From Candidatus Atribacteria bacterium (GTDB lineage Bacteria > Atribacterota > JALVIU01): a stretch of DNA of 9,443 nt. The stretch's first letter is position 1. Each line of letters starts with the position of its first letter. The stretch lies in contig JALVIU010000282.1 in NCBI GenBank assembly GCA_027028665.1, positions 1-9,443 on the forward strand, given 5' to 3'. Positions 1 to 6,927 of this stretch are shown here, one piece after another. The notes beneath the pieces were generated by a model. The model ran no database searches. It saw nothing but the letters and a program-made list of their open reading frames with translations, and was not told the DNA's origin. Both the position numbers and the translations under genes were made by a program.

Positions 1-488
1 TCAAAAGGAAATTCGCCTAAATTATTTATTCTTTCCCCCCTTCCATAAACGTATTTCAATCCTCCGTATACAAAAAATACTACATCCATACCTATATTTT
101 CTGCTACTTCCGCAAGCTCTTCCTTATTAAGATCTAATTCATAAAGTTCATTGAGAGCTATAAGGGTGGCTGCTGCATTAGAAGAACCCCCACCTAATCC
201 TGCGGAAATGGGGATATGTTTATCTATTTCGATCCTTAGGCCAAATTCCTTTTCAGCATAAAGGGCAAGCTGGTTGTATGCCTTGTATATAAGATTTCTT
301 CTATCTATGGGTAGATATTGATGATCAGATATGATTTCTATACCTTTTTTTATCCTTTTAAATCTTAAAACATCATATATATCTATAGTTTGTATAATAG
401 ATTCAATATTGTGATAGCCATCCTTTCTTCTGTTCTTTATGTCCAATGTAAAGTTTATTTTACCATAAGATTTTATCTCTAAGTCCAT
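1..488 (-). CDS. ispE: 4-diphosphocytidyl-2-C-methyl-D-erythritol kinase (partial, N-terminal 162 codons)
   Basis: GHMP-family kinase that phosphorylates CDP-methylerythritol with ATP in the cytosolic MEP pathway to isopentenyl diphosphate. The visible residues start MDLEIKSYGKINFTL, placing Lys10 where the family has its catalytic Lys. The glycine-rich ATP loop GLGGGSSNAA lies at about 97-106, and Asp135 in GMDVVFF matches the catalytic Asp, although the usual Pro after DV is Val here. A YGRGERI segment at 148-154 fits the family's GRGE element. The reading frame is open to the window edge, so about 110-120 C-terminal residues are missing. The ATG at 488-486 overlaps the 3' end of ispD by 10 nt out of frame. 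It is preceded by AAGGA at 502-498, so translational coupling with ispD is likely. Confidence 0.93.
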   Translation of the reverse strand, partial: MDLEIKSYGKINFTLDIKNRRKDGYHNIESIIQTIDIYDVLRFKRIKKGIEIISDHQYLPIDRRNLIYKAYNQLALYAEKEFGLRIEIDKHIPISAGLGGGSSNAAATLIALNELYELDLNKEELAEVAENIGMDVVFFVYGGLKYVYGRGERINNLGEFPF

Positions 489-1186
489 GTCTCTTCTTCC
501 TTTATAATTATTTCTGCAAGTCTAAGATCAAAAGGGGTAGTAATTTTAATATTACTTGCCTCACCCCATATTACTTTTATTTTATGTCCCATCTTTTCTA
601 CTAAAGAGGCCTCATCTGTATTTTTGAAACCCTCCTTTACACCTAATTTCTCATAAGCTTCTTTTATTATTTCTGTTTTAAATACCTGAGGTGTTTGAAC
701 TCTCACATATTTCTCCCTGGGAAGGGTTCCTTTTATATAGTTATTTCCATCTATTTCTTTTAAAGTATCAAAGAGAGGTATAGCAAGGATTGATGCACCG
801 GTATCATAAGCACCTTTAATTACCTCTTCTATTTTTTCTTTTGATACAAATGGTCTTGCTCCATCATGAATGCTTACAAATTTTGTTTCTCTGGGTATCT
901 CTTTTAGTCCTTTATATACTGACTCTCCTCTAGTCTTTCCTCCTACTATAATTTTTTTTAGTTTTTTTATCCCGAAATTTTTTATGTCTTTTTCTTGAGA
1001 CTCTATGCTTTCTTTATCTAAAACTAAATATATTTCATCAATAAGATTACATTCTTCGAATCTATTTAGTGTATAAAAGATAATAGGTTTCCCTTTTATA
1101 TTGATAAATAACTTATTTTGTATATACTGAGGGTGATGTTTCATTCTATTCCCTTTTCCTGCACCTGCTATTAATGCTACTACCAT
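479..1186 (-). CDS. ispD: 2-C-methyl-D-erythritol 4-phosphate cytidylyltransferase
   Basis: Transfers CMP from CTP to methylerythritol 4-phosphate, the MEP-pathway step just before IspE. The 235-residue length is normal. The N-terminal nucleotide-binding loop AGAGKGNRM (7-15) contains the catalytic Arg14. Lys25 lies in NKLF, a variant of the usual PKQF/Y. The substrate motif HDGARPF is at 107-113, QTPQVF at 164-169, TDEASLVE at 190-197 and NIKITTPFDL at 212-221, all IspD hallmarks. The start ATG (1186-1184) lies 7 nt after a modest GGGG ribosome-binding stretch (1197-1194) and about 34 nt downstream of the predicted transcription start. It ends in TAG overlapping ispE. The adjacent ispD-ispE pair gives two consecutive enzymes of one pathway under the promoter at 1227-1255. 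Confidence 0.96.
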   Translation of the reverse strand: MVVALIAGAGKGNRMKHHPQYIQNKLFINIKGKPIIFYTLNRFEECNLIDEIYLVLDKESIESQEKDIKNFGIKKLKKIIVGGKTRGESVYKGLKEIPRETKFVSIHDGARPFVSKEKIEEVIKGAYDTGASILAIPLFDTLKEIDGNNYIKGTLPREKYVRVQTPQVFKTEIIKEAYEKLGVKEGFKNTDEASLVEKMGHKIKVIWGEASNIKITTPFDLRLAEIIIKEEETWT

Positions 1187-4130: not shown

Positions 4131-5012
4131 ATGTCAAATCCATTAATAGGCGGTCAGGCAGTTATTGAAGGGGTGATGATGAGGGGGAAGAACCTCATAT
4201 CTGTAGCAGTAAGAAGACCAGATGGAGGGATCTCCCTCATGAAAGAACATATCATCCCTACTTCTAAAAAGATTAAGGTATTGGGTCTTCCTTTTTTGAG
4301 GGGAACAGCTGTACTTGCAGATGCCCTCTATCTGGGGATAAAAGCCCTTTCTTACTCTGCTAATGAGGCATTAGGAGAAGAGGAAAAGCTAAATGCATGG
4401 AGTATGACAGTTGCATTTACCATGGCCATAGGGATGTTTATATTGCTTTTTGTCTTTTTGCCTCTTTCTGTTGCTCAGATTACATCAAAGTTCTATGCAA
4501 ATAATGTAATAATGTTTAATCTTGTAGAAGGGTTGGTAAGGATTGCTATCTTTTTGGGTTATATCTGGATTATATCTTTGTTTCCAGATATAAAGAGGGT
4601 TTTTCAGTATCATGGTGCAGAACATAAAACAATCCATGCCTATGAAAATAATGTTCCCCTTACTCCTGAAGAAGCGAAAAGATATACTACTTTACATCCA
4701 AGATGTGGAACAAGCTTTTTAATGGTCTCTATGATAGTGATGATTATTCTTTATTCTTTTTTAGGTAGACCTTCATTTTTGATAAGGTTTACATCTCGAA
4801 TTTTACTTATTCCTGTAGTGGTAGGGGTTTCTTATGAATTTTTAAGATTTTCCTCTGATAATCTTAAAAATATATTTGTAAAGATACTCATTGCCCCTGG
4901 GCTCTGGCTTCAGAAACTTACAACAAAAGAACCAGATGAAAAACAGTTAGAAGTTGCAATAGAGGCCCTAAAGGCGGTTTTAGACGAGGAGGGAGTTCTT
5001 TACCGTGTTTGA
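4131..5012 (+). CDS. DUF1385 / YqhQ-like integral membrane protein
   Basis: A 293-residue membrane protein of a widespread family without an established biochemical function. Conserved family motifs are [13 protein letters not shown] (7-19), [13 protein letters not shown] (160-172) and HPRCGTSFL (189-197), whose His, Glu and Cys residues are invariant enough to suggest catalysis or metal binding. About four hydrophobic segments lie near 92-115, 130-151, 194-212 and 222-238. The C-terminal [18 protein letters not shown] is also a family feature. The gene begins 3 nt after rpmE with AAGGA inside the rpmE end, and its stop overlaps prfA by 8 nt. In many Firmicutes it also sits beside rpmE, prfA and prmC, which hints at a link to translation or membrane stress; that is inference. 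Confidence 0.9.
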
Positions 5013-6072
5013 GAAGTTGAAGGAAGTAGAAGAAAAGTTTGAAGAAGTAGAGAGACTCATGTCTCTGCCTGAAAATATATCAAATAGAGAAAAATTCATG
5101 AGCCTCTCAAAAACTTATAATGAATTAAAAGAGATTGTAGATACATATAGGGAATATAAAGAAGTAAAGAAAGATATAGAAGAAAATGAGGAACTCCTTC
5201 GGGAAGAAAAAGACCCTGAAATGAAAGAGCTTGCAAGGGAAGAAATAAAGACTTTGCAGGAGAAGCTTCAGGATTTGGAGTATAGACTCAAGATATTGCT
5301 TCTCCCTAAAGACCCCAATGATGAAAAAGGCGTAATTATAGAGATAAGATCTGGAACAGGAGGAGAGGAAGCGGCACTTTTTGCAGGGGATTTATTTAGG
5401 ATGTATTCTAAGTATGTAGAGAAGAAGGGTTGGAAATTAGAGGTTGTAGAGGCAAATCCCACAGAGCTTGGTGGCTTTAAAGAGGTTGTATTTATGGTAG
5501 AAGGTAATGGGGCCTTTAGTAAACTTAAATATGAGAGTGGAGTCCACAGGGTGCAGAGAGTGCCAGAGACAGAGGCAGGGGGAAGAATTCATACATCTGC
5601 TGCAACAGTTGCAGTTCTTCCTGAAGCTGAAGAAGTAGATATAGAGATAAAACCAGAGGATCTCAGGATAGATGTTTATAGATCTATGGGACACGGGGGT
5701 CAGAGTGTAAATACTACAGATTCTGCTGTAAGAATTACACACCTTCCCACAGGTATTGTAGTTACCTGCCAAGATGAGAAGTCTCAACTCAAGAATAAGG
5801 CAAAGGCCTTAAAGGTTTTGCGTGCCCGCCTTTTGGATATAGAGCTGGAAAAGCAGCAAAAAGAAAGACGGGACTTAAGACGTATTCAGATTGGATCAGG
5901 GGATAGAAGCGAGAGAATTCGTACCTATAATTTTCCTCAAAACAGGGTTACAGATCACAGGATAGGTTTAACTCTTTACAAATTGGATAGTATTTTGGAA
6001 GGAAATCTCGATGAAATCATAGACCCCCTAATTGCCTCAGATACAGCAGAAAAGCTTAAGAAGGTGATATAG
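5005..6072 (+). CDS. prfA: Peptide chain release factor 1 (RF1)
   Basis: Terminates translation at UAA and UAG. The 355-residue length is normal. The codon-recognition PxT motif is P187-E-T189 in [20 protein letters not shown], the RF1 type (RF2 has SPF). The catalytic GGQ lies at 231-233 in [16 protein letters not shown]; Gln233 is the residue methylated by PrmC. The coiled-coil-rich N-terminus (1-100) is domain 1. The C-terminus [27 protein letters not shown] is a normal RF1 ending. The start is GTG at 5005, overlapping the DUF1385 stop by 8 nt, with AGGAGG at 4987-4992 upstream. The stop codon is TAG, one of RF1's own codons, and the prmC coding sequence continues in the same frame directly after it. 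Confidence 0.97.
6060..6068 (+). promoter_or_regulatory. Strong Shine-Dalgarno sequence at prfA end, aimed at prmC
   Basis: GAAGGTGAT matches the anti-Shine-Dalgarno complement GGAGGTGAT at 8 of 9 positions, with AGGTGAT contiguous. Eight bases separate its GG from GTT at 6073, the same distance as between AAGGAGG and the rpiB ATG in this operon. It therefore points to initiation immediately after the prfA stop, although no canonical start codon is present there. Confidence 0.65.
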
Positions 6073-6927
6073 GTTTATCTCTTTGAATTATTACAATATG
6101 GAGTTTCATACCTTAAATCTAAAGGTATAGAGAGTGGAGAAAGGGAAGCAGAGCTTTTACTAATATATATATTAGGAAAAGATCGAGCTTTTTTGTATAG
6201 TAATTATAGAGAAGAGATAGATTCAGCTTATATTTTAAAATACAAGGAACTCTTAGAAAAAAGAGGTAGTCGTTTCCCACTTCAGTATATTTTAAAAGAA
6301 ATAGATTTCTACTCTATAAAATTAAAGGTTTCTCCTCATGTATTTATTCCTCGTCCTGAAACAGAGTTATTGGTGGAAGAGATATTGTATTATACATATA
6401 ACACCTCTTTTTCAGCTCCCATTCATATATTGGATTTAGGTACAGGAACTGGTGCCATAATCCTTGCTTTACTAAAAGAAATAAAAGGTTCAGAGGGCAT
6501 AGGAATTGATATAAGTGAAGATGCCATCTCCCTTTCGAAAGAAAATGCAGCTATAAATGGTATAAAAAATGTATCCTTTATAAAAGGGGATATTTTTTAT
6601 CCAGAAGAATTTACTAATTCCGAAAAATTTGATATTATAGTATCAAATCCTCCCTATATACCAGAGAGAGATATGGAAAGTCTACAAGAAGAGGTGAAGT
6701 ATGACCCTTTGATTTCTCTGGTAGGGGGAGAAGATGGATTGTTGTATTATAGGTATATATTTAAATGGGCGGTAAAGTTTCTAAAGAATAAGGGAATTTT
6801 GGGCTTTGAGATAGGTGAAGGAGAAGGAGTAGAGCTTAGAGAGATAGCAAAATCATATGGATTTTCTAATATCTATGTAAGAAAGGATTTTAATAATATA
6901 GAGAGGGTTATGATTATATGGAAGTAA
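6073..6927 (+). CDS. prmC: Release factor glutamine methyltransferase, start codon non-canonical or unresolved
   Basis: SAM-dependent enzyme that N5-methylates the Gln of the GGQ motif in RF1 and RF2. Counting from GTT at 6073, the protein has 284 residues, the normal family size. Residues 1-70 form the N-terminal helical domain: LFELLQYGVSYLKSKG and EREAELLLIYILGK align with IFEALKWASSYL and AELLL of Bacillus PrmC. FIPRPETELLVEE (91-103), the SAM loop DLGTGTGAI (121-129), acidic GIDIS (144-148) and catalytic NPPY (192-195) follow. The first canonical start in frame is TTG at 6193 (codon 41), which would cut away half the helical domain and has no good ribosome-binding site. A strong one precedes 6073. 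Its stop overlaps tsaC by 10 nt. The gene identity is certain; the start is not. Confidence 0.85.
   Translation, partial: VYLFELLQYGVSYLKSKGIESGEREAELLLIYILGKDRAFLYSNYREEIDSAYILKYKELLEKRGSRFPLQYILKEIDFYSIKLKVSPHVFIPRPETELLVEEILYYTYNTSFSAPIHILDLGTGTGAIILALLKEIKGSEGIGIDISEDAISLSKENAAINGIKNVSFIKGDIFYPEEFTNSEKFDIIVSNPPYIPERDMESLQEEVKYDPLISLVGGEDGLLYYRYIFKWAVKFLKNKGILGFEIGEGEGVELREIAKSYGFSNIYVRKDFNNIERVMIIWK

Follow-up and report, generated by a model that had tools for sequence, protein, structure and literature searches.

The closest precedent for the prmC start described here is sigR of Streptomyces. In this gene a GTC start codon was proven by mutation together with the mature N-terminus, and for S. 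griseoflavus and S. griseorubens the predicted start is GTT; conservation of the codon extends across the genus, and initiation on this codon was measured to be repressed by IF3 and is raised in IF3 fidelity mutants (PMC5472188). In both sigR and the prmC gene of the present genome, the GTY codon follows a strong Shine-Dalgarno with a misleading GTG in it, the operon also holds a coupled partner, and a low yield is expected. They differ in that sigR encodes a sigma factor and prmC a translation-factor methyltransferase, and the prmC GTT is known from the sequence of one genome.

Weak starts have also been described in ccpN (AUA) and cvfC1 (AUU) of S. aureus (PMC13009471). These two genes and infC (ATT/ATC/ATA) resemble prmC in that a weak start is backed by a strong or extended Shine-Dalgarno. 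However, all three use AUN codons that depart from AUG only in the third base, whereas the GTT of prmC is two bases off and lies outside table 11. The gene pair itself is familiar, since in bacteria prmC is found close behind prfA, as it is here. Across 71 such loci from many phyla the prmC start was mostly near the prfA stop, but all 71 starts were canonical (47 ATG, 14 TTG, 10 GTG) and none was GTT, unlike the gene studied here. A phrase search of the literature for earlier reports of GTT or GUU starts returned one insect paper only, although such searches miss cases, sigR among them. The preliminary description of this locus had called the start rare, which holds, but with GTC proven and GTT predicted in sigR it is not without parallel. 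The prmC GTT is a candidate addition to the known genes with non-canonical starts, and the mechanism is not new.

The prfA-prmC junction

The window, meaning the whole stretch of 9,443 nucleotides analysed, corresponds to contig C282 in the draft metagenome-assembled genome (1.79 Mb in 413 contigs, 90% complete) of a Candidatus Atribacteria bacterium. At the junction (Table 1) the order is GAAGGTGAT, A, TAG, GTT, and prfA and prmC share one frame with TAG as the sole separator. Reading of the sequence bore out the earlier account that the prmC frame, open from 6073 to a stop at 6925-6927 (284 residues), is without ATG, GTG or TTG until TTG 6193 and is directly preceded by the prfA stop.

Table 1. 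Features at the prfA-prmC junction, in window positions
Feature	Position	Strand	Remarks
prfA (release factor 1)	5005..6072	+	GTG start, TAG stop at 6070-6072; NCBIfam NF001859 559 bits, TIGR00019 554 bits
prmC Shine-Dalgarno GAAGGTGAT	6060..6068	+	within the prfA 3' end; read directly
In-frame GTG	6064..6066	+	within the Shine-Dalgarno; separated from prmC by TAG 6070-6072
GTT, apparent prmC start codon	6073..6075	+	immediately 3' of the prfA stop; aligns gap-free with the GTG starts of five relatives
prmC (release factor glutamine N5-methyltransferase)	6073..6927	+	284 codons plus stop; TIGR03534, PF17827
TTG, first canonical start of the prmC frame	6193..6195	+	codon 41; a start here removes more than half of PrmC_N

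At the codon use of this genome, the chance of 40 codons without ATG, GTG or TTG is 0.17, and the gap alone is unremarkable. What is remarkable is that the codons in the gap specify conserved protein and that their upstream boundary is a stop. The full-length protein scored 266 bits against the NCBIfam equivalog TIGR03534, above the curated cut-off of 199.1. When the frame was read from GTT 6073, residues 5-74 matched PF17827 (PrmC_N) at 69.3 bits, and this score fell to 25.2 bits when the protein was begun at TTG 6193. Judged by these matches, the 40 codons upstream of TTG 6193 encode real, conserved protein, which agrees with their earlier assignment to the PrmC N-terminal domain, and their codon use was likewise coding-like. 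A decaying prmC gene was ruled out by the intact domain scores.

The TAG that bounds the frame is an ordinary stop in this genome, where it terminates 100 of the 372 genes in the sampled sequence. Since the prfA C-terminus stops at the same place in relatives (for example EKVG-stop as against KKVI-stop), TAG 6070-6072 is the ordinary end of prfA. The Shine-Dalgarno upstream of it lies at a normal distance from GTT and had been described as strong; its duplex energy of -11.5 kcal/mol, set against a genome median of -10.2 (values that assume the standard anti-Shine-Dalgarno, no 16S gene having been found in the assembly), makes it as strong as the genome average. The Shine-Dalgarno before TTG 6193 was weaker than that before GTT 6073. 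Two other entries into prmC were considered and rejected: the GTG at 6064-6066 lies inside the Shine-Dalgarno, two codons ahead of TAG, and the other two frames, which would have to carry an out-of-frame or frameshifted entry, are open over 6068-6128 only in one case and 6060-6084 only in the other.

Comparison of the junction in related genomes had been proposed as a check. A PrmC scan of genome contigs for close relatives found none, and the nearest relatives compared share only the phylum with this genome, none being of the same class. In five of them (L018, L019, L022, L023 and L024, all of one genus), the codon opposite GTT 6073 in a gap-free alignment was the GTG start, and the alignment of prmC extended to its first residue. 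The GTG start in these five genomes is one base 3' of the prfA stop; where this 1-nt spacer is present, prmC is in a different frame from prfA. The agreement of five relatives puts the likely ancestral start at this place, with GTT one base away from GTG, and placement of the prmC start at position 6073 is well supported by homology.

The assembly error rate and other weak starts in the genome

The error rate of the assembly was estimated from the genome itself, by searching 372 well-scoring genes (~121,000 codons) for in-frame stops with coding sequence on both sides. There were 63 cases, including the prfA-prmC junction itself; by reading of the cases, the rest were short shadow frames and ordinary tandem genes in which a start follows within a few codons. 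No clear premature stop or broken gene was found among the ~121,000 codons, which means that random substitution errors are rare. With a stop-producing opportunity of ~17,000 base-equivalents, the substitution error is at most ~1.8e-4 per base (95%), a bound that could be ~1.4x higher since a nonsense change soon before an in-frame ATG, GTG or TTG may pass as a tandem gene. The expected number of starts lost by error is then below 0.15 in the sample and below 0.5 in the genome, and the probability of two or more such losses is at most ~0.01 and that of three or more ~0.0005.

The sample comprised 140 other stretches and, with the window, 632 kb (~555 kb readable), or roughly a third of the genome. 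Its 372 genes were scanned independently of annotated starts for a coding score and a Shine-Dalgarno located well before the first canonical codon. The top genes were phoH (ATA, -13.5 kcal/mol), prmC (GTT, -11.5), hisIE (ATT, -11.1) and prfB. The high rank of prfB (L121, G000:C227, ~73-1125, minus strand) is due to its own RF2 programmed frameshift site, which is of the usual kind (CTT TGA C). The start calls for phoH and hisIE rest on the limits of protein alignments, the Shine-Dalgarno and the coding score. The phoH-like gene (L155, G000:C281, 4428-5387, plus strand) has no ATG, GTG or TTG in its first 64 codons; alignments with the PhoH proteins of relatives begin at residue 10-12 of the open frame, adjoining an ATA that is preceded by AAGGAGGT and is the likely start. 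In hisIE (L034, G000:C1, 1845-2486, minus strand) there is no canonical start until codon 19 of the open frame. Alignments with relatives and with the curated profile begin at residues 2-10, and the likely start is an ATT that overlaps the end of hisF. In addition, infC (L174, G000:C385, minus strand) has, like infC of E. coli, an ATT start; here it lies behind GAAGGGGTGAT, with in-frame stops just before it.

Since errors at the bounded rate do not account for phoH and hisIE together, the lineage uses weak, IF3-type start codons, and this tips the balance towards a real GTT start in prmC. In a relative, the phoH gene (G031:C83:62373-63168, minus strand) matched in pieces only and had several in-frame stops, and is either broken or badly assembled.

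Probable initiation on GTT and its alternatives

We propose that prmC probably does initiate on GTT 6073 as a weak, non-canonical start codon. Of the preliminary claim that the ribosome starts on GTT, the placement at 6073 stands by homology, and its actual use has the indirect support of the low error rate and of the other non-canonical starts. Several points weigh against a real GTT start. The ATA and ATT of the companion genes are already in table 11, so that GTT is one step beyond them, and no close relative shows GTT, the starts compared being GTG in the five relatives of the phylum and canonical in the 71 more distant prmC genes. A single isolated start error is also still possible, the upper bound giving an expectation of up to ~0.5 in each genome.

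The latter point bears on the alternative that the codon at 6073 is truly GTG and that position 6075 carries a wrong consensus base (G to T) from a draft-assembly error or a strain mixture. One substitution would restore the GTG start of the five relatives, the genome comes from a metagenome and its assembly is fragmented, and first-stage screening across many windows favours the catching of just such errors. We nevertheless regard this explanation as rather unlikely, since ~121,000 codons free of clear premature stops hold substitution error to ~2e-4 per base, and the sample contains two independent genes whose non-canonical starts are not explained by errors at such a rate. If GTT is instead the true sequence, PrmC might still be made short from TTG 6193, with prmC weakened in the lineage. 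This codon is canonical, and the 244-residue product, which scored 253 bits against TIGR03534, would retain the complete catalytic domain. But an untranslated part would decay, and in the 40 upstream codons PrmC_N conservation is complete and codon use coding-like. The better Shine-Dalgarno is also the one before GTT, and a short PrmC is improbable. The shared frame, interrupted by TAG alone, raises the further alternative that PrmC is produced by readthrough as a PrfA-PrmC fusion, most of all when RF1, which itself reads TAG, is scarce. Such a fusion seems highly improbable, as GTT has a dedicated Shine-Dalgarno at the normal distance, TAG is in ordinary use as a stop, and the fusion frame is not conserved in the relatives with a 1-nt spacer.

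With initiation on GTT, the Shine-Dalgarno AAGGTGAT would position the ribosome on the codon, and ribosomes ending prfA at the adjoining TAG would probably feed much of prmC initiation by translational coupling. The initiator tRNA would pair with the G, by wobble as on GTG, and with the U, leaving the third base mismatched; because of this mismatch, initiation is expected to have low efficiency and to be held back by IF3. PrmC would then be scarce relative to RF1, a situation that should be tolerable for a catalytic modifying enzyme. By analogy with sigR, infC, ccpN and cvfC1, the yield of prmC should be low and IF3-sensitive; the presence of infC, itself ATT-started, only makes control by IF3 possible. 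B. subtilis pays a cost when PrmC is strongly overproduced (PMC8073009), which makes a weak prmC start plausible.

If real, the prmC case is a translation gene of near-universal distribution that naturally starts on GTT, which gene callers leave out of account. Known GTY starts, of which there are very few, would gain one more, and initiation would be shown to be a step at which the supply of PrmC can be limited. A broader and more tentative idea, which we rate as possible but doubtful, is that this Atribacterota lineage uses non-canonical starts more widely than usual (infC ATT, phoH ATA, hisIE ATT, prmC GTT), so that several housekeeping genes, including the release-factor activator, would be set by IF3-dependent start-codon discrimination and tied to the state of the translation machinery. 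The companion cases suggest that in such lineages gene callers shorten several proteins at the N-terminus.

A prmC without an in-frame canonical start also occurs in a second draft genome of this phylum (L007, G037:C70), the single other such case among ~30 loci from the phylum and outgroups. There the ATG is shifted out of frame by one base relative to its neighbours, just upstream of prmC, and this is probably an indel.
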